Part shown: positions 8,414-61,483 of the stretch, piece after piece
Numbering within the stretch: position 1 is the first letter of the stretch
Layout of the letters: every line of letters begins with the position of its first letter
NCBI RefSeq assembly: GCF_001625215.2
Contig: NC_030381.2
Coordinates: 1,699,131 to 1,763,130 of the forward strand
Reading direction: 5' to 3'
DNA: 64,000 nucleotides
Origin: Daucus carota subsp. sativus
Lineage: Eukaryota; Streptophyta; Magnoliopsida; Apiales; Apiaceae
The notes under the pieces: generated by a model
Database searches by the model: none
Told to the model about the DNA's origin: nothing
Seen by the model: the letters and a program-made list of their open reading frames with translations, nothing else
Program-made: the position numbers and the translations under genes

Positions 8414-8470
8414 GAAAAACCCCACTTATTATTTCTTTTCTTTTTTTGTCAGGGAAAAACCCCACTTATT
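8414..8470 (-). repeat. Tail-only micro-insertion (a) with 17-bp target duplication
   Basis: GAAAAACCCCACTTATT occurs at 8414-8430 and again at 8454-8470. The 23 bp between read on the minus strand as CCTGAC followed by an A-rich run. Layout: duplication, a few bases ending in C, A-rich tail, duplication, as after target-primed reverse transcription. Confidence 0.7.
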
Positions 8471-8520
8471 GATTAAATTTGTTTACTTATAAAGTAATTT
8501 ACATAATTGGATCAGAATGG

Positions 8521-8578
8521 GTCCCTATTAATGTTTTTTTTTTTTTTTTTTTTTGAAAATAGTCCCTATTAATGTTTT
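8521..8578 (-). repeat. Tail-only micro-insertion (b) with 17-bp target duplication
   Basis: GTCCCTATTAATGTTTT occurs at 8521-8537 and 8562-8578. Between them is a T run followed by GAAAATA; on the minus strand this is TATTTTC then about 17 A. It lies only about 50 bp from micro-insertion (a). Confidence 0.7.
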
Positions 8579-8674
8579 AATATATATATCGGTCATAAAT
8601 TTTCTTCCGCCCATAATAATAACTTAATATCCACGACCACAAACAAGCTGAAAATCAAGAATTAGGGTTTGACA

Positions 8675-10533
8675 ATGGATGAGAAGAATGTGCACTCTCC
8701 TCCCGTGCTCGAAGATGAGGAGTCTGTCAGTTGCACCAAGAAGCTTCGATTCGAGGGTTCTCCAGTTTACGAAGACACCGGTTATACTCTCTTCATCGTA
8801 CGTTTCTGTCTTCGTTTTTATGTTACTGTCTTATTATAACATATTAGTTAGATAAATGTTAGTTTAACTAGGTTCAGATAATTCATAGGTTCACACTTTT
8901 TCATGGTTCCAAATTGATTTAATCATATGCTGTCAAAACTTTATATGGTAATAGTGTCGGGACTCGAAAAAATTATTACTATAACGAGATCAATTTTAAA
9001 CAGAGGATATTTTTACGTGGAGCATATAGAGTTGGGATTAATCTTAACAGATTTTATTTTTACACGGAGCATATAAATTAATGTCTGGGCAATGCAGGAT
9101 TCTGGATACAAACTGCCTCTTTATCTCTCCGAGTTTGCTCTTGGGGAGTTTAACTACAGCAAGGTTTGTCTCTGGTCTCTTTACTCATTTACTGTAATGG
9201 CATTTTTTTTAAAATTTTTTAAAGCACTGGAATGTGAATGTTGTCGTTATCATAAGCTAATAAGCTTACACTACAGAAAACAACATTTGAGAATGTGAAT
9301 GTTGTCGAGACGATGAAATTATTGGATATTGTGAAGGGAACTACTTACCTTATTACTTTTGAAGCCTCCTTGCCTGATAATAAGAGTGATTATGCTCAAA
9401 CATTCGAAACAAATATATATATGTGCCCCTTAGACCCAACCGCAAAGATTGAGATTAAGTTTGTTAGGATCAAGCCATCTGACCTGGATTATGATGAGAA
9501 AGAATACTACGGAGAAAAGGCCTCGGAGTCTGACGAAAAAAAGTTTGAAGAAAAGCTCTCTGAGTTTGGCGAGGAAGACACTGAAAGAAAGCTCTCTGAA
9601 TCTGATAAGAAAGGCTCTGATGATAAAGACTCTGCAGAAGAGAAGCACTCTGAATTTGATGGCAAAGACTTTGCAGAAGAAAAGCTCGTTGAATCTGATG
9701 AAAAACACAATAAAGTAAACCTCTTTAAATCTGTTAAGAAAGACACTGAAGAAGAGCTCTCTAAATTTGACGAGAAAGACTCTGCAGAAGAGAATGTCAC
9801 TGAATCTAATATGAAACCCTCTGAAGAAGAAAAACCGAATAAATGTGACAAGGAAGACCATCAACTCTCGCAATCTGATGACAAATATCAGGAAGGCTCT
9901 GAATCTAGTAAAGAGTTAAAACAATATCACATTGACGTGGAGAAAAGTGATGTACGTCCCCTTACTCAATTTTACTGATGACTCTACTCTTGTTATTTTT
10001 CAATTAATTTGATTTATCTGCAAATTCTTGATTGTTCATATACAATACATTTATATTGAAAATACTGCAGGGTTTTGAGGTTGGATACTATCCAAATGTG
10101 AGGGGTTCTTGTTGTATGCTCCATAGATATTACGACCCACCAGCTAAGACCGTCTCTACTACGTGTTTGAATCAATTGGTTTATTTTTCTCAGTTGGCCA
10201 TCTGCCTCTATAACATGAACATGGTACGTCTCTGAATCCACATTTCTATTAATTATGACACCCCTCACCCAAACACGTAGTGGATATCAGTTTAGTCTAA
10301 TCATTTACATATACATCCAGATTACGTGCTATGACAATGTCAGAGTGATGAAGGCAATGGCTTCTGGTTGTGGGGGTACAACTTACCATATCACTTTCGA
10401 GGCCTCCTTGTTTAATGGGAATGCTGTAACCTTCCAAACAAAATTATACGCGTCCCTCCCATCTCCTTATCACGAGATTGAGGTTGAGTTTGTCAGGATT
10501 AAGCCTGTCATTAATTCCAACATTACTAACTGA
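8675..10533 (+). CDS. Double cystatin-like protein with acidic linker, copy 2
   Basis: Tandem paralogue of the gene at 5860 with the same five-exon plan: 8675-8797, 9098-9163, 9277-9951, 10071-10223, 10321-10533; 409 residues. All introns lie at codon boundaries, and exons 2 and 4 match copy 1 exactly in length (66 and 153 bp). The first domain (about 36-130) has LPLYLSEFALGEFN and TTYLITFEASL. The linker (about 131-270) is a run of S-E-S/F-D-E-K units ending ELKQYHIDVEKSD, also conserved in copy 1. The second domain (about 273-409) has GFEVGYYPNV, RYYDPPAKT, AICLYNMN, MASGCGGTTYHITFEASL and EVEFVRIKP. The domains are well conserved between copies, while the N-terminus and linker differ strongly. 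QxVxG is absent. A TTAGGGTTT word lies just before the ATG. Confidence 0.75.
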
Positions 10534-10821
10534 TGACAGAACAGCTGTAGTTTATAAAATGTAGTTCTGGAGTGTTTGTCAATGTCTATGATTTTCATTG
10601 CCTCCCAGAGTTGCAGGTCATATGTCAAGGGACCATTAATATTGTTCAAGAATTATGTCTGAGCTAAGTAAATCAGGCTGTTCGAGCTTTATATTAATGT
10701 AAGTTTTTAGTGTGTGCGAATTAAGTTTAATCTTTGTAGTATAATTTATGAAAAGGATTTTAGTTTTTTGGTTATCGATATGATTCAGTAATTATATTAA
10801 AGTGGTTTGTATATATTATGG

Positions 10822-11038
10822 CCGTTTGGGTTAGCTTAAAAGAAGTGACTTCTTGCTTAAAATAAAGAAGTGGAGTAGAAGTGAGAAGTAAATAAGTTAA
10901 TAAAGTGTTTGGAAAAGAAGTAGAAGCTGTGACACACAAGCTAACATTCTCAGCTTCTTAAAAGTGCTTCTATTTCTTTACACAAACGGGTCAATAGAAG
11001 CAGAAGCCGGAGTGCTTCTGGCTGCCGCGAAACAAACA
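10822..11038. mobile_element. GTTTGG-type MITE, copy 2
   Basis: Begins TGGCCGTTTGGGTTAGC, contains AAGTAGAAGC and ACACAAACGGGTC, and ends CCGCGAAACAAACA. It adjoins the fossil exon that follows, so it probably inserted in or beside it. Confidence 0.65.
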
Positions 11039-11107
11039 GATCCACCAGCTTATTTGAATGAATTGGTTATTCTATTATAGTTGGCCTCTTGCATCTATAA
11101 CGTGATG
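11039..11107 (+). pseudogene. Fossil exon-4 fragment of a third cystatin-like copy
   Basis: The stretch holds CCACCAGCT, TTGAATGAATTGGTTATT, TAGTTGGCCTCTTGCATC and TATAACGTGATGG. These match in order exon 4 of the gene at 8675: CCACCAGCT, TTGAATCAATTGGTTTATT, CAGTTGGCCATCTGCCTC, TATAACATGAACATGG. About 20 bp after CCACCAGCT are missing and the frame contains a TAG, so it is a dead remnant. No other exons of this copy are visible nearby. Confidence 0.65.
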
Positions 11108-11500
11108 GAATCGAATGAAAAGAATTTGATTTTAAATTGAATGAAATTTTTTTATAGCAAAGTAAAGATTTTGCAGATGAAAAATCACAATTATTATAAT
11201 AGTAAGGTGAAATTTTCTATCCATCTTTGGCACAAATATTTAAAAGTTTAATTTATTGTAATAAGTATATACATGATATTTTTATAATTTATCCATAAAG
11301 ATGTGATTTTATCACGAAGAATGATCTTGTAAATATCGAATTATTTGAAATTTAACGTGTTATGATACATATATGATTCATAATATATTTTATTTAATTA
11401 GAAATGGGTGGAATTCGCTTTATTGATTTAATTTGTATATTATAATAGAAAGGATAAAAATTCTGGATATGATAATAATTAGTTAAAAGAAATATTTTTT

Positions 11501-11551
11501 AAGAATGAGTAGATGATTCTTTCAAAAAAAAAAAAAGAATGAGTAGATGAT
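11501..11551 (+). repeat. Tail-only micro-insertion (c) with 17-bp target duplication
   Basis: AAGAATGAGTAGATGAT occurs at 11501-11517 and 11535-11551. The 17 bp between are TCTTTC plus eleven A. Confidence 0.75.
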
Positions 11552-11756
11552 CACGTGTTTGCGTTTTAAGGAAAAAGGTTCTGGATTAAGTAATTTTATA
11601 GAAGTATAGATTAAAAAACAATAAAATTTATATATTACGGATTTACGGTCACTAACCGAATTTGTACGAGTTTTTATTTTGAAATTCCAATTTTTAATGA
11701 ACTTGCTAAATAGACAGAATTATTTAAACAATAAATTCATATTATCCTGTATTCCT

Positions 11757-12527
11757 GTCTCCTGATTTCCTGCCCTGCTGAAAATATCACTCAATTCGTA
11801 ACTGAGTTATTCTCCTGGCAGGAGCTGAGTCAACTCGGCAAACTCGCTCTCACCCAAACGCCGCTTCTGATATTCAAGGTTAAATTTTACTTTTCATTTA
11901 TCTACTATAATGCTGTTGCTATTGGTCTTAGCTTTGATTTGCAGCTCAAGCTTTACAAGGCAGCATAAGTGCTCACCACCTGTTTGATGGAATGCCTGAA
12001 CTATAAGTAATTTGGGAATTTTGCTAATTAGTTTAAGCCGAGATATACCCTTGAAGATTGACGTAATGGGTTGTCATTTTGGGGTATGGGTTTGTATTCG
12101 TGTTCATAAACGCGTCAATTTGTGTTGTTTTAAGGTTTCGGTTGATAAGTATGGTGCCTGACTTTGACAATCATGTGGCTTTGATAATGTACAAACGAAG
12201 AGATGGGTTTTTGGTAATCATAATGATCTAATAGAAGCATAAGGAGTTTGGAGAGGTTAGGATGATATAATGATACAAATGTGTTTATATAAGCCGAATT
12301 TGAGCCAGCCATTACAAGCATATAGAAATTAAATAGTCTCGGATATTACAAGACATTACTCACGTTTGTTGTTGTATGGTCTAATATGGTGTTCTCTTAT
12401 TATTATTGCAAGCACTGAGTTGAAGATGAATTTATAAATTGTTGCTCCCATGATTTATTGTTTTCAGGGTTGCATTTGTATAAGTCCTGTATTGTGGCTT
12501 CTAGTTGCCGAGCAGAGAGCATAGAAG
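11757..12527 (+). promoter_or_regulatory. Probable 5' UTR and leader intron of the helicase gene
   Basis: GC-richer sequence at about 11757-11876 ends ATTCAAG before GTTAAATTTT, a plausible donor. A matching acceptor, TTTTCAG before GGTTGC, lies near 12467, about 60 bp before the ATG. I infer a 5' UTR intron of about 590 bp. No transcript supports it. Confidence 0.4.
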
Positions 12528-14198
12528 ATGACAGCTCTGGTGACAACGCGGTTGCTATTTCTAGTTGGGGATTCTTTATCTGTTAAAAAGTTCTCACGGT
12601 TTCCGAGGGCAGCTCCATTGCCTAAAAATATTCGTCTATTTTCCCGAATTAGTCATGATAATGGGCCTCTCACTCTCACGAGCCTGGGGTTTATGAGTGA
12701 ACATGAAACAACTACGAGGGACGAGAAATATAATCTTCCGCAGATAAGTTCAACAGTAAAAGTACCCAAAAGTAAAGTAAAAGTAGTTAGAAGTGCAGCG
12801 GTCAGGTCAGTCATTGCGAGGAATCCTCTTGAAATAGAAGCTGCCCCATTTTCTGCAAAGTCATTTGCCGAACTTGGTCTTCCATCGTTGTTAATTGAGA
12901 GGCTAGAGAGGGAAGGTTTTGCAGTTCCTACTGATGTTCAGTCGTCTGCGATTCCCACAATACTTAAGAGTCATGATGTAGTAATCCAGTCGTACACGGG
13001 TTCCGGAAAAACATTGGCGTATCTTCTTCCAATACTATCAGGAATAGGTGCACTGAATGAACTTCAAAATACCGTTAAACCTAGGAAGAAAATGGATATA
13101 GAAGCAGTAATCGTGGCCCCTTCTAGGGAGCTTGGAATGCAAATTGTTAGGGAGGTTGAAAAGCTTTTAGGACCTGAAGATAGAAAACTAGTTCAGCAGC
13201 TTGTAGGGGGTGCAAATAGATCAAGACAGGAAGAAGCTCTTAAAAAAAATAAGCCAGCTATCGTAGTTGGGACACCTGGGCGGATTGCAGAGATTAGTGC
13301 ATCTGGAAAGCTTCACACTCATGACTGTCGTTACCTAGTCCTAGATGAAGTTGATGAGCTGCTTTCGTTTAATTTCCGAGAGGATATGCATCGGATACTG
13401 GAGCATGTTGGGAAGAGACCCGGTTCTGGGAAAAGTGATTCAAAAATCCCTACTGCCAGGAAAGCTGGACGTCAAACTATAATGGTGTCTGCAACTGTGC
13501 CCTTTTCTGTTGTAAGGGCAGCTCGGAGCTGGGGCTGTGATCCTCTTCTTGTCCAAGCAAAAAAGGTTCTCACTCTTGATTCTGTCACTCCCTCTGGACC
13601 TGTTAACTTGACTGGGACATCATCTGCTTCTACTACAACCTCGCAAACTCCCTCTGCAGTTCAGAGTCTACCACCAGCTCTGAAGCACTATTACTGTGTC
13701 GCAAGGTTGCAACACAAGATTGATACTCTAAGAAGATGTGTGCATGCACTTGATGCCAAGTCTGTGATAGCTTTCATGAATCACAGTAGACAACTAAAGG
13801 ATGCCGTCTTTAAGCTAGAAGCTCGTGGGATGAATGCTATTGAACTACATGGAGATCTTGGAAAGCTTGCTAGGTCAACAATCCTAAAGAAATTTAAGAG
13901 TGGTCAAGTTAGAGTGCTTGTGACAAATGAGCTCTCAGCTAGAGGTTTGGATATACCAGAATGTGATCTTGTGGTTAATCTTGACTTACCAACAGACTCA
14001 ATTCACTACGCCCATCGAGCAGGTAGAACAGGCCGGCTTGGTAGAAATGGTTCTGTGGTTACCATATGTGAGGAGCGTGAAGTATTTATTATGAAGAAAA
14101 TGCAGAAGCAACTTGCAGTTCCTATTCAATCATGTGATTTTGCTGAAGGCAAGCTTCTTCTGACAGAGAATGAGAAGACATCAGATACCGGAAGGTGA
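12528..14198 (+). CDS. RH47: DEAD-box RNA helicase, RH47 type (mitochondrial)
   Basis: A 556-residue intronless reading frame with the helicase motifs in order: Q-motif region (about 112-145), TGSGKT (157-162), PSREL (198-202), TPGR (249-252), DEVD (273-276), SAT (321-323), ARGLD (471-475) and HRAGRTGR (496-503). Motif II is DEVD instead of DEAD, as I recall for plant RH47. The Arg- and Ser-rich, acid-poor N-terminus (1-60) looks like a mitochondrial targeting peptide. Arabidopsis RH47 (ISE1, EMB1586) is a mitochondrial RNA helicase whose loss changes plasmodesmata. A Ser/Thr-rich insert (about 355-380) separates the two RecA-like lobes. The family is secure; the RH47 assignment rests on motif II, the N-terminus and overall look. 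Confidence 0.88.
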   Translation: MTALVTTRLLFLVGDSLSVKKFSRFPRAAPLPKNIRLFSRISHDNGPLTLTSLGFMSEHETTTRDEKYNLPQISSTVKVPKSKVKVVRSAAVRSVIARNPLEIEAAPFSAKSFAELGLPSLLIERLEREGFAVPTDVQSSAIPTILKSHDVVIQSYTGSGKTLAYLLPILSGIGALNELQNTVKPRKKMDIEAVIVAPSRELGMQIVREVEKLLGPEDRKLVQQLVGGANRSRQEEALKKNKPAIVVGTPGRIAEISASGKLHTHDCRYLVLDEVDELLSFNFREDMHRILEHVGKRPGSGKSDSKIPTARKAGRQTIMVSATVPFSVVRAARSWGCDPLLVQAKKVLTLDSVTPSGPVNLTGTSSASTTTSQTPSAVQSLPPALKHYYCVARLQHKIDTLRRCVHALDAKSVIAFMNHSRQLKDAVFKLEARGMNAIELHGDLGKLARSTILKKFKSGQVRVLVTNELSARGLDIPECDLVVNLDLPTDSIHYAHRAGRTGRLGRNGSVVTICEEREVFIMKKMQKQLAVPIQSCDFAEGKLLLTENEKTSDTGR

Positions 14199-15036
14199 TA
14201 AAATTTTCTAATTACTTGTATTAAATTTTAATTTTATTATTTTATGAATTGGTAATATCACTAGTAGAATACAAATTTAAAACTTGTTATACATGAGATG
14301 TTTGAGACATCTAAATTGTAGCACTTATCCCAGTGCTTGCTAGTTCCCACATTCATGGGTAAAAGGTGAATTTGTTGAAATTATATAATAAGTACAAGAA
14401 TTAGGTACAAGAATGAAACTTGTGTTTGTATAGTTGCCTTCATAAATTACTGGTCTCCTCCATGATTGTCTAGGACTGGTTCATGCAACAACTTAAGAAA
14501 AGTGGCTTCTCTAAAATTCCCGTAAATTTGACATGTTCAATCATATCAACTGTGAAACGATGCATCAAGTAATATTCTGTGCCATGATATCATGCTCCTG
14601 CAGAGAATTTCTATCATCTCTATCCCTAGTATTATTGTTCAAATTTTTTTAGTTATTTCATTTATATTCCGCCCTGCCTTGAATTGTTTATACCGATTGT
14701 CTTGTAAATCAACAGTTTTCAGTTACGTGTTAGTATTTTACCATAGCAATGAGACTCACCACTAGTGGATGGTTGTTAGTCTCATATTACTCTCTTCATC
14801 TGCTAAATCCAAGTGGTTATTGCATAATTGTTTAAAAAGTGAGGATTAGTTTTAATTACTAAACCAAAATATAGACAAGAGCAAAGAAAGGGATGTTCTG
14901 AGTGATTTATGAAGAATTTAGCCAAATAGGAGATCCTTAGCCTTTGTGACTAAAGCGCAAATGATTCTTGTAGTGACTTACAAAGAATTGAGCCAAATAG
15001 GACTTAGGAGATCCACAGCCTTTGTGACGTGAAGCA
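14199..15036. other. Spacer with a small tandem duplication
   Basis: Contains 3' sequence of two convergent genes. Near 14915-15055 an imperfect duplication of about 80 bp repeats the words GAGCCAAATAGG, GAGATCC, GCCTTTGTGAC and ATGATTCTTGTA; the second copy enters the last exon of the CASP-like gene. No other gene is seen. Confidence 0.45.
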
Positions 15037-16464
15037 TCACCATATGATTCTTGTACAGAGCTTGTAGCCTGATAAGAGAGCACAAGTGGCATTGACAACA
15101 AATGCTGCAAAGGACATGCAAACAGAGACAATTGTAGCCCGTTTAAGTGCCGTACTTAGTTCATTCTGTTGAATGGCTGTTACTGCTACTGAAGAGGATG
15201 ATATGAGGAGGTAAGCTGCCAACTGATAAAAGGCATGATTAATCATCTAGTTAGTGGAATTAGTGAAGGATTTTAGTGCCTGAAGTTGCGCACACATATT
15301 GAGTTGTCAACATAAACATTAGTATGTTACCCAGTTCATCTGTCTCAGCTTGTTCAAGTGTTTTCTTATAAGAGAAAATAAAGTAAGTTGAAAGAAGAAA
15401 ACAATCTATGGTGTTTTCCGAATATGAATAGTAATGCCCATGGAAGGAACAAGTTTATTAAAAAGATAGGAAAGACATTTCTGGAATTATCACAATATGA
15501 TGAGCTGCTTTTGCTTTTCTCTCCAAATCTGTTTACTTCGTGTAAATCTGTTCGGAATGAATTTATTTAGATCTTAAATAGAGCAGAAAAAATGAGCATG
15601 GCATTAACACTGCATTGTGATTTATATTGTTTTAGTTTAATTACTATTCCAGGGTTTATTTTATATGCATATTTTCATGTACTTGTATGAATAAAAGTTC
15701 AGCCAGAAGCTTACACATGGATAAGAAATAGTCATTTAGCAGGGTTGAATATCTAATTTTTGAATTTACTGCTTAATCGCACTTCTTGTAAATTTAGTGG
15801 TTAAACTATCGCATGTATCAATTTCACAAAGAAAATTTGGTTACAATATTGCTAATGGTTTTTTGTTCACATGTAGGAATATAGTTGCATGTTCAAACAA
15901 GTTTAGAGTGTTAAGTAATTAATATTACAGAATATATACCTGATCAAGAGGGAAGCTACTGTAATCAGAGACAATGTCTGAGATGAGAACACCTCTGTAA
16001 GTGATATCACTAACACCTTTGAAGAGTTGATAAGCTGAGTAAGTGAAAACCGATACAATCGCTATAAAGCAATACCTGTGTAAACAAAGATCAAATAAAA
16101 TTAATAAGCAAGATTTTGTAGGGACAATTCTGTTCTAGAAACAGCTCAGTGTTACAAGTGTGTGGGTCAAGATTGACTTTTTAAACATATATTGCTTCAA
16201 TCGACTTCCATTTGTAGTCCTTAGTCCTTACAGCAGTTCAGGGCTTTGATAGAAACTAGACTTCTGATTGCTGTTCTTTGTGTTTGATGGGCTAGCTACC
16301 AAGAGAGCAGAAACGGATGAAAGAACGAGGGACAAGGACCGGAGGAAGAGATTTGAAAGGTGAAACGACGGTCTAGAGCTCAACCTTGTAGAAGCAACCG
16401 AGAATGAATATGGTGATGGCGTATGCTGAGAGTAGCCTCCAGGCGTTGCTGAAAGACTAGACAT
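15037..16464 (-). CDS. CASP-like membrane protein (CASPL4-like)
   Basis: Three exons on the minus strand, 16464-16232, 16075-15940 and 15222-15037, join in frame to 184 residues. After a Ser/Pro-rich N-terminus come hydrophobic segments typical of the four-helix CASP/MARVEL fold: LRSLSLVLSSVSALLVAS, CFIAIVSVFTYSAYQLF, LAAYLLISSSSVAV, and the segment running through FAAFVVNATCALLSGY. The conserved Arg opening helix 1 and the aspartates of SDIVSDYSSFPLDQ are kept. CASP-like proteins form membrane scaffolds related to those that set the Casparian strip. The last exon ends CTRIIW-stop, a usual family ending. The subfamily is a guess. Confidence 0.85.
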
Positions 16465-17525
16465 GATATGATCTCAAGCTTTTACTACTAGTAGACCTCA
16501 TTGTATGTCTTTCATTTCGGAACTGTTTATATTCGATTGTTCATAACCTTAAACTTGCTTACGGTTAGGAGGAACCTCTTAAGCTACTGTATTTACAGAA
16601 TATTTTTGTTTAATTAGCAGGGAGACTACATAAACTATATAGTCAATGCTTGTTTTTGCCAGAGTTTCGTTTTCACGCATGCCAAATCTGTTAATAATTG
16701 TTTTAGAAAATAATTAGTTACTAGTTGGACTAAAATTAGGGAAGATGATACTGTACTTGCATGATTACCTAATAATTATTTAATCTCGCAAAGAAAGAGG
16801 CAGGTACAGGAAGAAGATACGGGGAAATATGTCCCCATTTTTTTATTCCGTAAATTATTTGGTAGCGTTCGAAATGCATATGAAATTTCAAGACTGCCCA
16901 TCGATTGAAATTTGATAGGTGACTTCAGATTTTCATCCAATACTGATCTTCTTGGCTCATGGTATCCGGACAATTAAGATACTAAATTTTGTTTGACCCA
17001 ATAGTTTGAAAAATATATTCAAGAGACGACCTTCTGGTAAGATGATTAATTAAGTATTGTCAAAAATAAATTTTGTATAAATGTGTGAGAACTATCTCTC
17101 ATTTTATATATCAAAAAATGAGAATGTAAATATTTTCAAAAAATATAGTTCAAAGACTAATAATTTTGTGGTCAGATGAATATTTTAGTATTGTCAGAAA
17201 TAAGTTTGATATGGTTGTGTGATAACTATCTCGTTTTATTTATATTAAGAGTATAAACATGATCAAAATAAGTATGAGTGTGTGAATATATCTAATTATT
17301 GAGTAAACACTATATATATTACACGACAACTCGACAAGATGCTAATTATAAATATTCGGAATGTACGAGTGTGTTTAGTCATCGAACAAATATCATATAT
17401 GCTACACGAGAATCATCTCATTCGTTTCGTTTATCAAAAGTTAAGGATTACAATATTGTCAAAAACGAACGTGAATGTTTACTGTCGAGATGAGTTCATT
17501 ATAATAATCACCGGGCTGGCATGGG
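16465..17525. other. Spacer, nothing supported
   Basis: Upstream region of the CASP-like gene and AT-rich DNA. An open frame at 16776-16973 (-) has no recognisable family and I do not call it. Loosely repeated words such as ATTGTCAAAAA at about 17055 and 17455 suggest old repeat debris. Confidence 0.35.
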
Positions 17526-20743: not shown

Positions 20744-20799
20744 CAAAAAGAGCCCTGCAAAGCAATCACAAAAGCTTATTATCATCTACCCAGAGAGCA

Positions 20800-24367: not shown

Positions 24368-24908
24368 TAAAACCAACAATAAACTCGAATCTATATACTA
24401 ACAGAAGATACAGTATAGACTATAGACTGTGGAGGAAACAGGGAATTAGCTTAAATTTTGTTTCCAGATTCCGGCTGACCTCCGAAAATTAGTAGTTATT
24501 TTGGGTTTTAGCTTGACGAAATTTGATAATGTTAAAAAATACTTATTCGTATTGTAGATATAATTCCAACTTATGAAATCCGATTTGATTAAAATTATGG
24601 TTTCGATATTGATTCTAAACACAGTAATTTTAATGAAAATTACATTAGTCTCGTCCCGTTGACCAAAATATTCAAGATTTGATACAGAATTAACATGTTA
24701 CGTATTGGACGTGATATTAGTCCAATTAACATGTTACGTATTAACAACCCAGATCAAATTCCGAGTCTTTTTCGAAAATCGGGTCAACTCCTGAAATCCG
24801 AATTCGAAAATAAGCCCAAATAAACTGGCCCAACTGTAACAACTTGGGTAATCCACAAGCCCAATACAGGCCCCAAAAAATCATGATTTGTTGGTGTATT
24901 ACTAATAT

Positions 24909-43009: not shown

Positions 43010-43064
43010 AATTGTTTTTTATAATGTTGCTTATCAAAAAAAATAAATTGTTTTTTATAATGTT
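43010..43064 (+). repeat. Tail-only micro-insertion (d) with 19-bp target duplication
   Basis: AATTGTTTTTTATAATGTT occurs at 43010-43028 and 43046-43064. The 17 bp between read GCTTATC, eight A, then TA. Confidence 0.75.
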
Positions 43065-43251: not shown

Positions 43252-43297
43252 AAGTTTAATGAATAGTGTATTTCAAAAAAAAAAGTTTAATGAATAG
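43252..43297 (+). repeat. Tail-only micro-insertion (e) with 15-bp target duplication
   Basis: AAGTTTAATGAATAG occurs at 43252-43266 and 43283-43297. The 16 bp between read TGTATTTC plus eight A. It is about 190 bp from micro-insertion (d). Confidence 0.75.
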
Positions 43298-44342: not shown

Positions 44343-45796
44343 TAATTATTAAATACTTATAATTCTCCTATCAAGTATCAAGTCATGTAAGCGAGAGAGA
44401 AGACACGTTTATCTCAATCTCCAAGGACAAGTATAAAATTATTCCGTTAAGCACAACGAATTCAATGTCAAATCATCGATTCAGTTGACTTCTCGATGGT
44501 TTAGTAGAGTACTCGTATCACCTAGTTTCTGGACCTGCATGATTTGTACGGAGTAGTAATTAATCATATCATATTAACCTGTTTATATTTTCACATATTT
44601 CTATAAATTTAATCAAATACATAAAAATATGGAATTTAATTTTTTTCATGAAAAAGTATTAGTGTCTTATTTTTATTTACAAAAAGAAATTTAAACAAAT
44701 TATAATTTAAATATATGATCCTAAGCTTATAGAGAGTGATATGAATTTGTAAAATGGAATTTTACTTATAAAAAAGAAGTAATTCATAAGTGGGAAAAAA
44801 CTTAATTTATCTGTTTTACAATTCAAAATTTTTAGAATAAAAATAGGTTGAATATTCCTATTTTAGTAATATCATCTAAATATCAAACCGACTTAATTTG
44901 GGTACAAACTTATCCAAGTACCAAGTCCATCAAATGGTGATGAATGCTTCTATATATTAATATGTTAATTGTTAACTAAAGAACTTAGTTTAACAATATT
45001 AATCATGTTCTTGGGCATGTCATAGTCATAAACCAACTAAATTAGCAGTTAATCATTTAGTGATTCTTTATTGGAGTTCCTTTGCGCATGCACTTTAGCT
45101 CTTTCAAGACACTTGTTTAACAATGATACTTGTTTAACAATTGATAAATATTAGATTTATCACTCACGGCCTAATGCATTCAAATCGTCCTCGTGTACAC
45201 TCTTATCCTTCACTTTGTTGATGACGTTAATAAATAATAATTACTCGAATATGAATCCCTCCCTCGTGTTAGTTGACAAGTTCTTTTTATCAGATTTAAT
45301 CCCTAACAATTATTATTACATAAGTTTGAATTTATTGAAATAAAAGATGTGGGGTAATTTATTGAAATAAAGAAGCATATGAGTATAATTCATAGGGAAA
45401 AGTTACTTTTTAGATTGATATGTTATCATTTATTTTTATTTAATTTAATTTACAAGTTAGAAAATATCCAATTAAGTATGAGGGGTATTTGACTTGATTT
45501 AAAAGTCTAATTTCCGGCTGTTTAGTGATGTATTTTAATCTTTAGTATTTTATTTTATAAAAATATCGAAATATAATTTTAAAAATAATTGATAATACTT
45601 ATCATTATATTAATTATTTTCATATCTCATAAATTATAAATATCAAATATTTAGGCACCACATAAATTGAATAATCATTTATCACTTATAAGAAAAAAAT
45701 ATATTTTTCTTAAATTAGATCAAATGAACATATTTTATATTCGACACGTGTTGAGCACATCAAGTACGATTCAAGTACTATAGTAGGATAATGCAT

Positions 45797-46181: not shown

Positions 46182-46220
46182 AAAACTCAGTCGATTTAAT
46201 CAAAAAAATAAAAACTTAGT
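46182..46220 (+). repeat. Possible older tail-only micro-insertion (g)
   Basis: AAAACTCAGTCGATTTAAT is followed by CAAAAAAATA and then AAAACTTAGTCGATTAAT. The two copies differ by one substitution and one indel. It fits the pattern of the cleaner cases but could be a chance repeat in AT-rich element DNA. Confidence 0.4.
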
Positions 46221-46526
46221 CGATTAATCGGTAATCGAACAGATCCCCCTATCAGAATCGTGTCAAAAATTAATAACATTAATACTTGATCACTGATTAA
46301 TTGGTTAAAATATAGATTAAAGAGCCAAAAATCGATCTGAATATTAAAAAAATCTAAAAAATTAGAAACAAATGTAAAAAATTATAATTAATTACATACT
46401 GTTAACACTAAAGGTGTTGTGGCAACAACACTGCAACAGAGTGGGCAACAGTAAGCTGAGGTGGCAGCCAAATCTATAGCAGACATACTAGTCAGTTACT
46501 GTTATCATTACTTTCTCTTGTAAATA

Positions 46527-49487: not shown

Positions 49488-49504
49488 CTGAAACTTGAGA
49501 TTAT

Positions 49505-50089: not shown

Positions 50090-50524
50090 CTCCTCCATCC
50101 CAAATTAGATGACTTTTTTGAGAAAAGAATTTATCCCAAAATAGTTGAGCCTCTCTTTTTTCGGTGCATATTTATCGACAATCTTTCAACTTTACCTTTT
50201 CTTATTTATCATTTCTAATGTACCCATCTAGCTAAAAATATTGAAAGTCAACATAATAAATATGGGCAGACTTGGAAAAAAGAACAAATCATTTAATACT
50301 TCTTAATATGTGTGAAATGAATAAAAGGCTCGTCTAAATTGGGATGGACGGCCTGCAAGGGTTGGTTCAGCTGGTTAAAGAGAGGACATGTATCCTCAGG
50401 TTCGACTCCCAAAGGGAGCAGAATTTGTGATTATGCCTCCTGGATCACGTAGTTTGCAGGTTATTGCGTGAGTGCGGGTTCCTACGTTAAAAAAATAATA
50501 AAAAAAAAATTGGGATGGACGTAG
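50090..50524. mobile_element. Stowaway-like MITE interrupted by a SINE
   Basis: CTCCTCCATCCCAAATTAGA on the left and AATTGGGATGGACGTAG on the right are inverted and TA-flanked. The SINE at 50351-50506 sits inside the right terminal repeat, so the MITE is the older insertion. Confidence 0.75.
50351..50506 (+). mobile_element. tRNA-derived SINE, copy 2
   Basis: Starts GCCTGCAAGG, has A-box-like GGTTCAGCTGGTTAAAG and an intact B box GGTTCGACTCC, ends GCGGGTTCCTACGTT and an A-rich tail. A perfect 15-bp duplication, AAATTGGGATGGACG, lies at 50336-50350 and 50507-50521. Near-identity of its head to the copy at 33964 shows a common source. Confidence 0.88.
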
Positions 50525-51910: not shown

Positions 51911-52161
51911 TTCCTTCTGTCCCATTTAATTGTATATGTTTCTTTTCAACTGCTCGACACGCATTTCAATACTCTTATAAAATATAGTTCCGTAATGTAT
52001 TTTTGAGATTTTATTTTTCTGAATAAAAATATAACATCCAAACTTTAATTCAGAAAAAAAAAATTTTAAAAATAAATTACACAACTACACTTTACAAGAG
52101 CATTAAAGTCCGTGCCGCGTCCCCGTCCCCCGATGTATACAATTCAGGGGGACGGAGGGAG
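51911..52161. mobile_element. Stowaway-like MITE, family S, copy 3
   Basis: TTCCTTCTGTCCC to GGGGGACGGAGGGAG, TA-flanked, with the same interior as the copies at 44093 and 46527. It lies about 600 bp upstream of the LRR receptor gene. Confidence 0.85.
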
Positions 52162-52768
52162 TACTGTCCACTACACCCACTAATCACCAAAAGAAAGAAT
52201 TACCTATCTTTCAGTGAAAATCAACAAAAAAATTAATCGAAAAAGCCGCCAAATATAATCAAACTGCAACAACATTATTCCATCTCACAACCCCATCATC
52301 TGTATCTCTTTATTTTCAGTTCTAATCATTTGTATCTACATAATTTTATATTTCTTGTACTTGTCTTGTGTCTACTAAACCTCTCTTTGAATCCAAGTTT
52401 CCCTATTACTAGTAAATTTTCACCAGTTTCTCCAGACTCCACTAGTGATTTTCTTTCACAAGTTGTTGAAAATTCATAAATTTGTATTTACTTCTAAGCT
52501 TTTTGCTCAATAAAAAGGGGATCTTTATTGACCATTGTTAATCTATTTTTATTTTTCATTGAAAGATTGCTCTTTATTGTTTGTTTAGCTAGTTTCTTGA
52601 TAGCCCATCACTCTAGTTTTCTTGATTTCTTTCATTTTCTTCACCTTTTTTGGTCTCTGACTTTTTTTAGCAAGAAAGTTATGAGGGTTTGGTTGGAATG
52701 AGCTCTTTGAGTTTTGGGTTTACTATTTTGCTATAGAATTTTTAGAGAAGTTGAAGAGGTGTAAAAAG

Positions 52769-55700
52769 ATGAGTTCTTTAGTTCCACTTCAGTTTTTATG
52801 GGTTGGTCTTGGAATACTTCTTGCTGCTTGTGATGCATTCCCTGAGCATGAAGGTACTGACTTTTGCTAAGTTGGTTTAAATTCTCTGTAGATCTTGATT
52901 TGATTACTGTTTTCAGAAGTGTAAGAATTAAGTCAATGTGGGAATTTTTTTAAATTTTTTGTGAAGACCATGGATGTAATTTTTGATGAATACATTGCTT
53001 ATATGTTATTGATGATATGTGGATATGTATAAATTAATTTGAGTGCAAAGTTTTGATTTTTTTACAGTTGATGCACTGACTGCCTTTAAGGAAGCTATAT
53101 ATGATGACCCTTTATTGGCTTTGTCAAGTTGGAATGCCTTGGATTCAAATCCTTGCAACTGGTCTGGCATATCGTGTTCGATGACTACAGATCATGTTAT
53201 AAAGCTGTAAGAACTGTTCCTTCCATTTGATATGCAACAGTTCATGTTTTATTACTTCAAAGAGTTGAGTTGATGTAAGTTGATTCTGCAGTGTTTAGAC
53301 CTTAATCTGAGGTTTAATTTGTTGTGTAATACTGTGAACAGCAACCTGTCTGGTTCATCTTTGAAGGGATTCCTGGCACCAGAAATTTGTCGACTATCTT
53401 CCTTGCAAGAATTGTAAGAATCCATACCGAGTTTCTTGAATATATTTATGGTTGCCTGCTGCTTTGGCCATTGTTTAATGGAAGTGATAACTTTTTAAAT
53501 GTTTATAGGGTTTTACATGGAAATAAATTCATTGGAATAATACCCAAAGAAATTGGCTTGTTGAAAGACCTCAGGGTGTTGGATTTAGGGGCAAACCAGT
53601 TATCTGGACCGATTCCTCCTGAGATAGGAAACTTGAGCAGTATTATTAAGATGTGAGTAAATATTTGGGTTTAAGCCCTAACTACGATCTCTGTTTACAA
53701 TCCTTATTTTTAATCCTACATGTTTCATCACAGAAACCTTCAGTCCAATGGGTTGAGTGGGAGGTTGCCTTCAGAGCTTGGCAATTTAAAGGACCTTGAG
53801 GAACTTAGGCTGGACAGGAACAAACTCCAAGGAACTGTTCCTGGTAATAATGGTTCGCGAGTTGCATCAAACATGCATGGAATGTGAGTTGAATATGCCA
53901 AGAACATATGAAAAAGTTTTTAGTCCACTTCATTCTTGCAGCAATAGTGAAATTTTCAGTTTCAAGTTTAAATTTTCACTGACCCTGATCTAAGCCTAAG
54001 GTTATTGATTATATGAATTTCTGAACACTGACTTGACTATAAAGAAGAGTGCTGCCATATATCTCCAGTTCTGACACTTTTTTTGTATAAATTGTTACAG
54101 GTATGTCTCCAATGGGAATCCTGCCGGTTTATGTCGCTTTTCTCAATTAAAAGTTGCAGATTTTTCATACAACTTCTTTGTTGGTAGCGTGCCCAAGTGC
54201 TTGGAATATCTTCCAAAGTATCTTTTTTACTCTGTCTAGCTGACTTAATTTCTTTCGTGTATTCTTTGCTCACTCAGTTTTGTTGTGCAGTTCCAGCTTT
54301 CAAGGGAACTGCCTTCTAGACCGAGATCCCAAACAGCGCCCTACACATCAATGTGGTAAATTATCATGCAGATCTTTTTTTTAAATGTATTAGCTGCTAA
54401 ATTATTTTTAAGCAATGCAATTCGTAGAAATTTGAAAAAACAAAGGGTGTCATTAAGCTTAAGGTCGCATCACCAAAATTTAATGTCAACAAATTATGAT
54501 TTCAATTAACAAGGATACAGTCGTTTATTATGGTATACTAGAAGTCTTAAATCTGATTAAAACTGTAATATATTTAAACCATGTTGCAGTGAATTTTGAC
54601 TTCAAAATTTCATTAATCTGAATTGAATTTCAGTATTGTGGTTAAATGACATATATATGTACAGGCAGTAGTTATCCTCCACCTCCTCCTCCTCCTAAGA
54701 GCCAACCTGGAGTCCTAAGTAAACATCGTCCTAGCGAAGACAAATCCAATCATCATGATGATTCAAAGCCTTCTTGGGTTTTAGCTGTTGAAATAGTTAC
54801 AGGAGTACTGTTTGGTTCTCTTTTTCTTGTGGCTCTTGCCATGGGTCTTCGAAGATGCAAAAATCAGACATCAATCGTATTACCCTGGAAAAAATCAACT
54901 ACTGACAGAGACCATATGACTATGTACTTAGGTAGGCAGTATGCTTGAAACTGTTATAATAAATTAAACACTGAATCAAAATACCCTTCCATCTGACAAT
55001 TCAATTGTTTTTGGTCTAGAAACTGGCCTGTTAACGGATGTAGCAAAGTACAGCAGACAGGAACTTGAAGTAGCCTGTGAAGATTTTAGCAACATAATTG
55101 GGTCATCTTCAGATAGTATTGTCTACAAAGGCATCATCAAAAGTGGTCCTGAGATCGCCGTGATATCTCTTTGCATTAAAGAAGAGCACTGGACAGGTTA
55201 TCTTGAGCTTTATTTTCAGAAAGAGGTAGAGTGACTTTCCCTTTGTACGACTTAAGAGTATGCTGTACGCCCAAAACCTAAAATATTAAAAATAATCTAG
55301 TTATTCTGTATATAGGTGGCTGACTTGGCGAGATTAGACCACGAGAATGCAGGAAAACTACTAGGCTATTGTAGAGAGAGCTCCCCATTTACGAGGATGC
55401 TGGTATTTGAATATGCATCAAATGGAACGTTGTATGAGCACCTACATTGTAAGTACAATTTTTTATCTTGGAGAATATTCAATAGCCATTGTGTTTAAAA
55501 TCTTAATCTCATTTAACTACAGATGGTGAAGGGTGTCAATTAAGTTGGACAAGGCGTATGAATATTGTCATAGGCATCGCCAAGGGACTCAAATATCTTC
55601 ACACAGAAATTGAACCGCCGTTTACCATATCCGAATTGAACTCCAGTTCTGTTTATCTTACTGATACTTTTTCTCCAAAGGTATGTCCAAATGGCTCTGC

Positions 55701-56447
55701 TACAACAATTTGGGTTAAAGTTAGTAGTAATCAGAAAATGAAAGGACTCTGTGTATAAACAGATGTTCGTTTAAAGTTTTTCATCAGTCCCTACCATGCA
55801 AACGTGATTCTTGTTATTTGTCAAAAATGGTTCATACCATATTTACGCATTCTAACTTTTGAGAAAATTATCGTCCTGCAGCTAGTTGATTTTGAGAGTT
55901 GGAAAACTATTATATCAAGATCGGAGAAGAATTCTGGTGCAATTAGTTGTGAAGGTGCTGTTTGTGTTCTTCCAAGTTCTCTAGACAGCCGTCACCTGGA
56001 TGTCCAGGGCAATATATATGCCTTTGGAGTACTTCTTCTGGAGCTAATTAGTGGAAGACCTCCATTCTGCAAAAATAAAGGATGCCTAGTAGACTGGGTA
56101 AGTACTAAACTTGCTGACACATATTTCTTTTTAGATCTCGACTACATTGTCTGATGGAAATTTTCCAATGATTCAACAATGCCTGGATATTCCTTCTGCA
56201 GGCCAAAGAATATCTCGATCAGCCAGAAGTAATGTCCAAAGTTGTGGATCCAGAGCTGAAACATTTCCGAGACGATGACCTTAAAGTAATATGTGAGGTA
56301 GCTAGTCTATGCATTAAACCAAATCCACTGGTGCAACTAACAATGCAGGAACTATGCACCGTTTTAGAAAGCAGAATCGACACTTCTGTATCGTCTGAGA
56401 TAAAGGCGTCGTCGTTGGCATGGGCAGAACTGGCGCTTTCTCCATGA
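52769..56447 (+). CDS. LRR receptor-like pseudokinase
   Basis: Thirteen exons give 665 residues: 52769-52853, 53068-53206, 53342-53413, 53509-53652, 53734-53883, 54101-54217, 54291-54355, 54665-54931, 55020-55225, 55316-55448, 55523-55680, 55882-56097, 56202-56447. Order: signal peptide (1 to about 23), LRR cap (DALTAFKEAIYDDP, CNWSGISC), about four LRRs, a juxtamembrane Pro run (262-268), a transmembrane helix (about 295-318) and a kinase-like domain (about 355-640). The domain is probably inactive: the β3 region reads EIAVISLCIKEE, the HRD loop reads FTISELNSSSVYL and DFG reads DFE. DVQGNIYAFGVLLLELISG keeps the lower lobe. It resembles the At1g63430/At5g41180 group, as I recall; such proteins signal through partner kinases. 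The LRR block is short, as in that group. Confidence 0.86.
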
Positions 56448-57258
56448 CCACCAGAGCAATCTAACACAATGTAGATTAGAACAATACCTTCTAAATACTC
56501 TTCTTACTTACTACTAAATACTAATCATTTGTCCAAATAATTAACTTGGACTTGAGATTATGTAAATAACTTTTGAGTGTGAAAATATATACCATTAGGC
56601 TGATTCATTATGTTGTGAATGTAATACCTTTTTTATGTAAAGGTCTTTATTCCATAAATTGCAAGTCATGTAATGGTTCGAAACTTGTCAAAAGACGAGA
56701 TGGCCTTCGAAGTATAAATGTGAACTTTTATTAGCTGGATCACAGGCAACTCAGGACTAGTATGTTCTAACCATGATTGCCACATATTTATTGGTCAAAG
56801 CCGACGATTAACCAGATAATTTCAAAAAGTTGCATTATTGGATAAAATTAGTCAAAGCTATCCTCCACTTTTAATTCTTATCCTTGGGAGTTGGGATCTA
56901 CCTATCAAGAAAAAAAACTTTTATCGTGTGATTGGCAAAAAGCTGTTGCTTTCAATCAAATTCGAATATCTCCAGCCTACAAACTGAGTGATAATAAACA
57001 ATTTTTTATGAAATATTTAGAAAAATGTTGGTCAAACATTACATCCCCTACATATAAAAACCGAGAACTAAAAACAAAACAAAACATCACCTTCAGTCTG
57101 GTACTGAAACACCAATTACAAATATTAATGTCAATATGTCATTGTTGCTGAGCAAGCATTAGGTATCACTATTCCGATAACCACAAACAAGAAAAGCCAA
57201 ACTCCTAATAACAAAATTGTGCAAATTGTAGATGCCATAACTTTGAAAAGGGAATTAT
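56448..57258. other. Convergent 3' sequences
   Basis: 3' regions of the LRR gene (+) and NOB1 (-). Open frames here are short and featureless. Confidence 0.4.
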
Positions 57259-60200
57259 CTAATGCTTGGCACGTGAGTAGTGATTATCATTAGGATTCCT
57301 CCTCCCGCTAAAAACTGCCAGAGCTTTTCTAACAGGGGGTTGCAGCGGAGCTTTCTTATCAGTATGGTGGAGAAAGATGTGATTTGAGGCAAAAATGTCG
57401 TCTTCCTGCAAAATAGTTAGATAGAAACCAGGGTTTAGTTTCCACTTGTCTGTACACAAGATAAACAATGAAAAAGTTGAAAGGAATCTCACATCTTTAT
57501 TCTTCTTTTTTGTCTTCGGGTGAAGAAATTTTTGTGGGAGTTGATCCTCACGTAAAACAGGGTTCTTTGTGATCGCATCCCTCCCACCTTGGGGCATAGG
57601 CAGTGAAAACTGAACATGGACCAAAATCAGAACAAACATTATAAAAAGCGATAATTAAAGCAAAATTCAAGTACCACCAGCACCAGGTATCAAAAATCAA
57701 GGTCAAACATCTGCCAACTAGCATACTTCAAAAACCCATACTGTTATCCTCCTAAAGGTTAGACGACCAATGTTTTACTTCTAGTTCATGATTAAAGTCT
57801 ATGGACAAATAAAAATGCCCATACATGATTAATTACGACCGAGTAAGCAAACTAGCGCCAACATAAGCACATGAGACTGGAAACTCTCAAGAAAACACAG
57901 GTATTATTAAAACTCACAAAATTTGTTTCTTACATATGGGCATTTTGTACTTCTATGTTGTAGCAAAATTTGGGTTATGCTTCTATTAATTGCATGATTA
58001 GAAGAGTGACTAACCTCCATTGACCACAATGACATTTGGGTTACTGACAAGTACAAATTTAGATAAACTACAACCCTAGTCAAATGATTTTCAGTTGGGA
58101 ACGATAACTATTTCCTAGAGTTCTCCGCCACTACTAAATAAAAAAAAAGTTTTTGCATTACTTACTTTTGTACCACGCAAGGACACACGCGGTCGTCGAG
58201 CTGCAACTATAATGCCATTTTCACCAACTGTAACAGCTACCTTGCGCAATGTCCCACCATTACCACACTTGGGACAAAAGATTCTACCAATTTCCGTAGT
58301 CACATTGTAGCAGGCATGGCATTTCAGGATCCATCTGAAGACATTAATATAGGAACTCAGTGAGTTTATATACTCATTCCTTGCTATTATACTAAAAAGC
58401 TTTATGTCTAGAAGAATCCGTGTAATTAACCTAAAAGGAGGACCAAATGTTACAAATTAAATAGTGTGTGTGATAACTGATAGGCTGAAACTCCAGAATG
58501 TCACAATTAAATCCTTGAGAGGAAACAATTGCAACAGAAACCAAACTGTTAGCAGCCAGTATAATGTCACTAACTTACTATTAAGGCCAAATATTATTAT
58601 ACCTATGTAGCTCACGTATCTGCATTCCCCCTGGAGCTACCAATCGTAAACCCATTTGCAGAATAACATTTTGCATAGCAAAGTCACTGGTTATACAAGC
58701 CACACTTGACTCAGATAGAGATCTTAACATCCAGCTCTGTTCGCTACTATTGTCATCTGCAATGGATACATTACCACTTTCACCAGCTTGGTTAGATAAA
58801 TTAAAATGTTCCACCTCATGAGCTTCATCATCAACTCCATCCTCAGAAATATTTTCAACTTCCAGTACTTCCTCGGGCCCTTGAGGGTTGCTTACGTCAT
58901 TACCATCTTCAATTACCTCTGATGAATCTTCTTCCAGCCTCATCTGGGTCAAAATAGTAGAAAGATCTCCATCTGTAACATTACTTTTCTCTATCTCATT
59001 TTCAAGATGTGATTCATTTAAAGACTGATCAGTCACCAGGTCCTGGTAGCTGGCACTGTCTTGTTTATCACTATCCATGGTCTTGGCTGTATCATTTTGG
59101 ATATCTTTCTCCACCGATTCCTCGTATGTTTCACGTCTAGCCTTTCGTCTAAGAAATCTTCTGTGTGTACTTCGACTAACAGCGGGAAGCCAATCATCAG
59201 TATTGTTATCAAGTGCTCCCTGAGACGCATCAACTCCGGCAGCCACCATCTTCCCTTCTATATTAACCTCTTTTTTTTTGGGAAAATACTTCCTCGGTTT
59301 CGTATAACCACCATCAAAGCCCTCTTTGTTTTCCGAATGAGATTCAACTGCATTGCCCACTGAACCATCATCTATACTAGTATTATCTTCTGCAGGTATA
59401 ACATTCATATTCAAATCTTTCAGTGGAAGTATTCTCGATTCAGGCCCGTTTCCATCCCCGACTGCATGTTCTAGCGCTTCCCACTCTTCCAAATTAGGAA
59501 CATTGGAGCCCCACCCAGGCAAGTCCTTCTCAGGTAGCCTCTTCACATTAACCGTGTGCATAGGAGGAGGGCTATCCCTGATATGTTTTGTTCCATGGAT
59601 TTGAGCCTCCAACATATGAGTTAAAGCAATAAGCTTAAGATCGACATCTGACAGCGTCTGCAGATCACCAGTTGCCCTTGCAAAGTTGATGACTACAGAA
59701 CCACATAAACAAACATCAGGAAAAAATATATAAATTTAGCCATCCATTCAAGTGCGTGGACTCCATTGTTATCAAGTCGACGACTCGTCGACTAGTCGAC
59801 GACTAGTCGACAAGTCGTTTTATAGAAAAAGTCAAACAACGACTTATTTTCAACATACCAGTGTCTCCCTAATCTTTGTATCATTTCAACTTCACATTAT
59901 TATTTCCTTGTCACTACTTTTTGGCTTTAGGCTATGTAATATTCGTATCATTTTCACATATAAGTACATCCCTAATCTTTGTATCATTTCAACTTCACAT
60001 TATTATTTCTTTCCTATCACTACTTTTTGACTTCAATTTATATGTGAACTAACAATCTGCTACGTCGTATACATCTCATTGTTGCTTATTATCTTTTACT
60101 TTTGATTCAAACTATAAACTGATGTGTGTTCAACTATATTTTATTTTATATATTAAATCTAGTAAAAATATGTATAAGAATGACTTGTCGACTTTTTACG

Positions 60201-61044
60201 ACTAGTCGGGCGACTTGTCGACTAGTCGATTCCAAGATGTCCGGGCGCCGAGGCTCGACTTGGCGCCGTAATAAGCTTGGTATCAAATAAAAATTACAAA
60301 TTAGAAAAACTGAACCCTGTGTACATATACTGATCAATTCCAAAAACAACACTATCTCGATAAATGCCATATTTAATCTACAAAAAAAAAAAACTTAAAA
60401 TTAACGTCAATCTGTAAATTCCAATCCTTCATTTTAAACAGTAACATTCATCCTACTCAATAAATTCATCATATGCATATAATGTCCATGTACATCTATC
60501 AACAGTTATCTTACAATCCATTAAACAGGTGTACACGCAAAAAATCTCCCTCCCCCCTCCCTCCAAACTAACTCACATTTCAAATATACACACAGACGTA
60601 ACCAAATTAATACTAAAAACTGCGTAAACTATTCCAACACAGTTCCAATTTCACATCGTAATCAACATATTCACATTAACAAACCAACAGCTAATCCAAT
60701 TCAAATAAAAAACAGAGACATATACCTTTCTTAAGAGAATCAGGAGACGGCTCCATGGTATTAACATCAAACGGCAACAAATTGAGGCTATGCCGCGACC
60801 TCGGGTCCCGCACCTCATCGATAACCTCCGCCACCGAAACGAACTTATCCGACATCTTATGCAGCTTCTCTCCGCCTTGAATTATCGCATTTGCGTCCAC
60901 CACCGCCACGGCGATCCCATTCGTCGACTTACAGCTTCCGGCGGCGATGCTCGCCGGAGCTACAATTGGAGGCTTTGTCGCCGGCGGCTTCGGCGGCTGC
61001 TTGACGATGTTGCTCCAGTTGATTGGCGGTGGTTGAGTTTCCAT
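57259..61044 (-). CDS. NOB1: NOB1, 20S pre-rRNA D-site endonuclease
   Basis: Five exons on the minus strand, 61044-60726, 59692-58603, 58334-58166, 57609-57493 and 57405-57259, give 613 residues, close to plant NOB1. A Pro-rich start leads to a PIN nuclease domain (AVAVVDANAIIQGG with Asp50; VAEVIDEVRD; in exon 2 GDLQTLSDVDLKLIALTHML). A long acidic middle region (about 200-430) precedes the conserved WMLRSLSESSVACITSDFAM and MQIRELHRW, then a zinc ribbon (CHAC-Y, FCPKCG; Cys475, 478, 490, 493) and a basic tail. NOB1 cuts 20S pre-rRNA at site D in late cytoplasmic 40S maturation, with PNO1. It is probably single-copy and essential. Intron 1 (1033 bp) carries a repeat. Confidence 0.92.
59765..60275. 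repeat. CGACTAGTCG-rich repeat in NOB1 intron 1
   Basis: Left part GTCGACGACTCGTCGACTAG and right part CGACTTGTCGACTAGTCGAT mirror each other around an AT-rich middle, like subterminal repeats of a hAT-type element. Inside, about 60 bp (CCCTAATCTTTGTATCATTT onward) is duplicated in tandem at about 59868 and 59970. Terminal repeats and a target duplication are not clear. Confidence 0.5.
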
Positions 61045-61441
61045 GGCTGTGGATTAAGAGGGACTATGTGTTAAACCCTAGATAATGTATATGTACGCTT
61101 TTAGTTTCAGAGGCGTGTTAAAACGTCGGGTTCAAAAGCCCTACACCCGGTTGGGTCGGGTTTTGGGCAATATACATGCGTCTTTTCTTTTCCACAGCGG
61201 TAGAAATTGAGAATCGAAATAAATAAGTTGACATATCGATTTAGAATATATTAAATATATTTTTGATAAATTAGAAATTGTTAGTCAAATTAAAATATCA
61301 TCGATAAATTAATAAAATATTTTTCAAAATTTGATCAAAAATTTATCAGAATTTTTTAAATGAATCAGAAATATTTAAAAACCCAATTTATTTCAACTAT
61401 AATTGTATTTGTCACAACTGTAATCTTTGAAAAACAGGTTT

Positions 61442-61483
61442 GTGTTTATGCTTTTTTTTTTGCTAAGGGTGTTTATGCTTTTT
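61442..61483 (-). repeat. Tail-only micro-insertion (f) with 15-bp target duplication
   Basis: GTGTTTATGCTTTTT occurs at 61442-61456 and 61469-61483. The 12 bp between read, on the minus strand, CCTTAGC and five A. Confidence 0.65.

Follow-up and report, generated by a model that had tools for sequence, protein, structure and literature searches.

Tail-only micro-insertions in the carrot genome and their resemblance to LINE 3′ ends

How does an insertion arise that consists of little more than an A tail between two copies of its target? This question is raised by a 64,000-nucleotide stretch of Daucus carota subsp. sativus (assembly GCF_001625215.2, contig NC_030381.2, C1:1699131-1763130; hereafter the window), in which six places carry a direct repeat, a few nucleotides ending in C, an A run and the same repeat again. 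Such tail-only insertions were found far above chance in a sample of the genome, and their short bodies, compared as a set, resemble the 3′ ends of long interspersed nuclear elements (LINEs). Each site is probably the product of target-primed reverse transcription (TPRT) of a LINE whose copy stopped almost at once, that is, an extreme 5′ truncation.

Layout of the six sites and their excess in a genome sample

On the sense strand, all six sites show the same order of duplication, body of 6–8 nt with a final C, A tail and duplication, with the A tail forming the 3′ end of the insert and adjoining the second repeat. The target-site duplications are exact and 15–19 bp long, within the ~7–20 bp expected of L1-type TPRT. 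The initial annotation had listed these sites with repeats of 17, 17, 17, 19, 15 and 15 bp, and all repeats, bodies and A tails were confirmed in the sequence. Its statement that they occur in both orientations and include two pairs less than 200 bp apart was likewise borne out: three sites lie on each strand, and the 8414/8521 and 43010/43252 pairs are 50 and 187 bases apart, respectively. A weaker seventh candidate, with other GATTAATCG-type repeats nearby, is listed after them; the slash in each target marks the presumed nick.

8414..8470, minus strand: tail-only insertion, 17-bp duplication AATAAGTGGGGTTTTTC (sense), body CCTGAC, interrupted A tail, target TAATC/AATAAG
8521..8578, minus strand: tail-only insertion, 17-bp duplication AAAACATTAATAGGGAC, body TATTTTC, A tail of 21, target ATATT/AAAACA
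11501..11551, plus strand: tail-only insertion, 17-bp duplication AAGAATGAGTAGATGAT, body TCTTTC, A tail, target TTTTT/AAGAAT
43010..43064, plus strand: tail-only insertion, 19-bp duplication AATTGTTTTTTATAATGTT, body GCTTATC, A tail, target AAACT/AATTG
43252..43297, plus strand: tail-only insertion, 15-bp duplication AAGTTTAATGAATAG, body TGTATTTC, A tail, target GTATT/AAGTTT
61442..61483, minus strand: tail-only insertion, 15-bp duplication AAAAAGCATAAACAC, body CCTTAGC, A tail, target AACCT/AAAAAGC
46182..46225, plus strand: weaker seventh candidate, imperfect 15-bp duplication AAAACTCAGTCGATT / AAAACTTAGTCGATT with one mismatch, body TAATC, interrupted A tail

The assembly comprises 441,086,747 bases in 11 contigs (C1–C9 of 33–65 Mb each, C10 of 250,368 bases). 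We scanned a sample of 254,000 bases, consisting of the window and 19 other 10-kb stretches located at 1.0, 2.5 or 4.0 Mb of the chromosomes and mostly in the arms. These are 20 of the 21 long loci; the satellite locus L024 was excluded because its array matches itself. The scan required an A run of at least 6 flanked by a duplication of at least 11 with at most one mismatch, and a composition filter was applied. From 622 A runs, 20 matches were obtained, including 11 tail-only insertions, four matches from a tandem array at 63035, and five others with bodies of 0, 21, 27, 31 and 44 nt. The site at 61442 was dropped by the composition filter but stood in a separate scan, which brings the tail-only count to 12, seven of them in the window (including the weak 46182) and five in the other 190 kb (loci L012, L013, L017, L022 and L023). 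Two or three of the 12 have mismatched repeats, namely 46182, L017 and, if the repeat is extended leftwards, L013. The tandem array (window 63035-63240) has ~5 copies of 42 bp, each with an A run, and is a source of false matches in duplication scans.

Permuting the right flanks 60 times gave a mean of 0.38 matches, or 0.17 (maximum 1) with a body of at most 12 nt. A comparison of the genome-wide count with shuffled sequence had been suggested along with the original observation; over the 254 kb covered here, the count is far above that of permuted flanks (12 versus 0.17). In the mirror control, 619 T runs yielded nine matches, four from the same array and the others with bodies of 0, 1, 3, 5 and 19 nt. 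Bodies of 5–9 nt were found 11 times in the A orientation (12 with 61442) versus once outside the array in the T mirror. Chance does not explain the six sites.

LINE 3′ ends, target sites and satellite copies

LINEs were located by the zf-RVT domain (PF13966) alone, and 150 matches were scored of 1372 candidates; long open frames are present in these LINEs, many of 1200–1391 amino acids and one of 1768. Of 74 loci beside zf-RVT matches that were taken for 3′ ends, L098 was set aside, as it holds a tail-only insertion of its own. An A run was identified at the expected place in 58 of the remaining 73, where the base before the tail is C in 49, T in six and G in three. These ends include TTCTGGC, TTTGGC, GTGGC, TTCGTC, TTTGTC, TTTAGC, CTTAGC, TTTATC, TTATTTC and GCTTTC. 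All 13 bodies that were not selected on C (the 12 from the sample and that of L098) have a final C. The initial annotation had taken this shared base as a hint of a common source or rule, which is supported here: most LINE 3′ ends of this genome carry C before the tail, and bodies derived from them would do likewise. In nine LINEs (L025–L031, L033 and L034), the long frame stops 18–23 nt before the A tail, leaving a very short 3′ untranslated region.

We compared 16 bodies with the sampled LINE ends: the 12 from the sample, L098 as a chance encounter, and L099, L107 and L109, which were chosen by a C-before-A12 pattern, recognised by eye and not counted for the C rule. The longest common suffixes sum to 65 nt. 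In the control of genomic words ending in C before AAA, the mean was 37.5 and none of 2000 draws reached 65; within-body shuffles with the final C kept gave a mean of 47.8, and three of 2000 reached 65. Seven of the 16 bodies share 5–6 nt with a sampled LINE end (such as TCTGGC, CTTTC, CTTAGC, TATTTC and TTATC). In the window, matches extend over 6 nt for TGTATTTC at 43252 (L095) and CCTTAGC at 61442 (L038), 5 nt for TCTTTC at 11501 (L096) and GCTTATC at 43010 (L062), 4 nt for TATTTTC at 8521 (L096), 3 nt for TAATC at 46182, and the final C alone for CCTGAC at 8414. The different bodies are best read as deriving from different LINE families. Extreme 5′ truncation of LINE copies accounts for both the layout and the final C, and the earlier proposal of nearly empty TPRT insertions, which had allowed for such truncation or for a distinct priming event on poly(A) RNA, is supported by the match to LINE ends and the C rule (49/58).

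The local short interspersed nuclear element (SINE) was considered as a source and rejected, its end CGTT being at odds with the bodies; reading of the SINE end agreed with the original remark on this difference. This element, tRNA-like by eye, lies at window 50336-50521 with a 15-bp duplication and CGTT before its tail, and a similar end occurs around 34150. Scans of the window with Rfam (gathering threshold) and for tRNAs gave no matches.

A T-rich stretch followed by A on the sense strand is the target of L1-type endonucleases. By eye, T or C before AA was found at the target in 13 of the 16 cases, with T/AA in 10 of those; L013, L022 and L098 differ. From what is known of TPRT, a LINE endonuclease would nick the bottom strand at such a T-rich site (sense T/AA), and the exposed T end would pair with the poly(A) tail of a LINE RNA. 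Reverse transcription would then copy the tail and only the last 5–9 nt of the element, and the cDNA would join the top-strand end, 15–19 bases off in the six sites, generating the duplication.

Further copies were identified in L024 (C4:4.0 Mb), a 40/159-bp satellite. The 36-nt probe sequence published for the carrot centromeric repeat CentDc (PMC8259371) matches this locus at no place exactly, at nine places with at most one mismatch and at 61 with at most three. In twelve monomers, TAGC (once TAGG) and an A tail are flanked on both sides by a CAACTTGTAGCTTCATT-like stretch. This stretch has 82 matches in L024: the insert comes directly after 12 of them, another 10 form the second copy at filled sites, and the remaining 60 belong to neither group. 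Of the 60, 13 continue without interruption into ATTGAC, which also follows the second copy, and represent unfilled, near-identical monomers. LINE copies L048, L064 and L077 (TTAGC type) join the satellite at the same base as the tail-only copy. The LINE end ATTTAGC overlaps the ATT of the target, so that the satellite copy may hold 7 templated nt.

In a LINE group mostly ending in TTTAGC, with longest frames near 1200 amino acids, 10 of 16 flanks match the CentDc-like centromeric satellite (3′ flanks of L036, L037, L038, L047, L048, L062, L064, L066, L075 and L077), versus none of 34 fragments of other LINEs. This group may be a satellite-directed LINE.

Body lengths and rival explanations

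The 12 bodies are 5, 5, 6, 6, 6, 6, 7, 7, 7, 7, 8 and 9 nt long, and 12 of the 17 non-array matches within reach of the scan fall at 5–9 nt (p about 5e-7 against a log-uniform spread). A second scan, which scored A runs of these 254 kb more strictly and extended to 1500 nt, yielded 19 matches: 11 of 4–9 nt (three from the array), one of at most 3 nt and seven longer, at 21, 27, 31, 48 (array), 68, 135 and 138 nt (the SINE). The 68- and 135-nt matches carry 29-bp repeats. Apart from the 138-nt SINE, the longer matches resemble local or long repeats by eye, with the 31-nt match in L020 (ending TTTTC) being ambiguous. When 14 LINE 3′ ends were compared with the same 254 kb, no match was found by blastn and one weak stretch by tblastn, in a search that divergent families could escape. 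Given this blastn result, tail-only products are commoner than recognisable longer LINE copies in the sample.

We infer from the narrow range of 5–9 nt a discrete early stop (abortive TPRT) rather than a short template. As a tentative generalisation, which we hold with less than even confidence, LINE reverse transcription in this plant may have a discrete checkpoint: after the tail and about 7 nt, most TPRT events would stop and be sealed, so that tail-only scars, which a rough extrapolation puts at around ten thousand per genome, would outnumber longer LINE copies and seed many long A tracts. Naive scaling from this small, mostly arm sample gives 11,000–36,000 tail-only insertions per genome, or 4,000–27,000 without the window.

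Several observations weigh against truncated LINE copies or against their early stop. The scan covered only 254 kb, 64 kb of which is the window where the pattern was first noticed, and its stricter version leaves, outside the array, eight matches of 4–9 nt versus six longer ones (21, 27, 31, 68, 135 and 138 nt). Each body of 5–9 nt holds little information by itself; nine of 16 match sampled LINE ends over just 1–4 nt, and CCTGAC, ACCTTAC and TCTCTC, which share 1, 1 and 2 nt, are without a convincing partner, suggesting an unsampled family or an origin other than a LINE. Leftward growth of the duplications through tail As favours AA after the nick. In L024, the joined flanks of 10 of the 12 filled sites differ from the nearest unfilled monomer by 7–10 ungapped mismatches of 58, mostly a one-base shift on the left by eye. 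The satellite repeat unit is itself tandem, and in some of the 12 filled sites one or two base differences separate the flanking copies. The 12 probably go back to a small number of events that the array has multiplied. Empty copies of four window sites (8414, 8521, 43010 and 43252), whose flanks are single-copy, were not found in this genome by a search that skips common words: the 8414/8521 context had no second match, and for 43010/43252 the one match spans just 36 bp at the far end of the context. The same search gave no match for L098, matches in the right flank only for L022, and one 75% match for L107.

Two alternatives replace the LINE as the source. Any polyadenylated host mRNA might serve as template, with the C coming from cleavage at CA and the inserts being extreme 5′-truncated processed pseudogenes. 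Plant cleavage sites favour YA, which would suit such an origin, but the same rule should give T endings too, whereas all 13 bodies not selected on C end in C; the bodies also fit LINE ends better than their C-keeping shuffles do (three of 2000 reach the observed sum). The L1-type machinery of flowering plants is presumed able to use poly(A) RNA in trans (PMC3747384), and we nonetheless consider host mRNA very improbable as the template. Filler repair of staggered breaks, or slippage at A runs, might instead produce tandem duplications in which an A run is included by coincidence. There are direct repeats around short inserts that lack an A run (for example 24688 and 45329), and the T mirror is not empty, with five non-array matches, four of them with bodies of 0–5 nt. 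Yet the A run lies on the 3′ side of the insert, with 11 cases (12 with 61442) versus one in the T mirror at 5–9 nt, the last base is C in 12 of 12, and by eye most targets are T/AA-like, so that this explanation is hardly credible.

The other two alternatives concern the length. The main rival to an early stop is a short template, in which host 5′-to-3′ decay would trim the LINE RNA to the footprint of the tail-bound reverse transcriptase and the enzyme would run off after the tail and about 7 nt. Both are forms of TPRT and leave the same scar. A trimmed template would fit the similar body length across matches to different LINE families, and extra 5′ bases are common in run-off products; GCTTAGC, CCTTAGC and TGTATTTC indeed carry one or two 5′ bases past the LINE match, although these could be unsampled LINE variants. 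The short template is a possibility that we take seriously and still doubt. The narrow length class could also be an effect of survival or sampling, if LINE copies are made at every length and those kept near genes are mainly the shortest. The sample is small and drawn largely from arms, and long insertions may be lost by selection or deletion. Selection, however, should hardly tell 7 nt from 15–60 nt, yet only four matches lie there (21, 27, 31 and 44 nt), some of them resembling local repeats by eye, and we regard such an effect as unlikely.

Two possible blocks behind an early stop were rejected. An RNA stem upstream of the last 7 nt is not indicated, no common stem being seen by eye in single-sequence folds of 47 LINE 3′ ends. 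A ribosome at the stop codon, which lies 18–23 nt before the tail in the nine LINEs of the longer-frame type (L025–L031, L033 and L034), was dropped because bodies ending in TTAGC are equally short although the TTAGC-type LINEs L036–L038 have 157–185 nt between stop and tail.

Known systems and long A tracts

The tail-only insertions share with 5′-truncated L1-type LINE insertions made by TPRT the 15–19 bp duplication and the 3′ A tail; by eye most targets are T/AA-like, and the bodies as a set resemble LINE ends. Different from these, only 5–9 nt of the element are left, in a narrow class with few intermediate lengths. In the human NF1 gene, one of 18 insertions is a poly(T) insertion of ~120 bp credited to the L1 endonuclease, which its authors propose to be an Alu, L1 or processed pseudogene with severe truncation (PMC3219598). 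It is likewise a tail-only product, whereas in carrot such products form the main class sampled and what is left of their bodies points to LINE ends. Plant SINEs ending in poly(A), such as the copy at 50336, have a similar duplication and A tail and presumably use the same enzyme; that SINE has a body of 138 nt ending in CGTT, and no tail-only body so ends. Tailless retropseudogenes, mentioned in PMC3747384, are also odd products credited to an L1-type reverse transcriptase, and they lack the A tail, while tail-only insertions have little else. No report of a 5–9 nt tail-only class in plants was recognised among the titles and opening lines of abstracts returned by searches of open-access literature. 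Tail-only products of the L1 endonuclease are thus already on record, and the 5–9 nt length class is the unusual part.

Why most LINE copies end up truncated is an old question. A product class of near-fixed length in different LINE families would implicate one defined step, either the transition from copying the tail to elongating beyond it or the limit of the enzyme footprint on the RNA, and would allow a test by counting. A failed-copy product could in this way mark where the copying enzyme gives up. It would also provide an origin for A-rich microsatellites, as well as for small polymorphic indels that carry clean duplications and that repeat annotation would hardly detect; the duplications let such scars be found in any assembly without a repeat library. 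Direct repeats without an A tail, perhaps of filler type and outside the tail-only class, occur at window 24688-24742 (19-bp repeat, 17-nt insert) and 45329-45371 (16-bp repeat, 11-nt insert).

Across the whole genome and both strands, there are 19,883 A tracts of at least 12. Longer LINE ends, tail-only scars and other repeats all contribute to the excess of C before these tracts, in shares that the counts cannot separate. Among 20 places with C before A12, three are tail-only by eye (L099, L107 and L109) and L101 is a possible, uncounted case; L102, L103, L105 and L106 are identical repeats and L114–L116 nearly identical, which means that other repeats supply some of the excess of C across the genome. 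The base before the tract is C in 10,574 (53%), G in 2,821 and T in 6,488, and the base after it is C in 5,419, G in 7,479 and T in 6,985 (chi-square 3786), which indicates that A tracts have a direction. G is far commoner after these tracts than before them.

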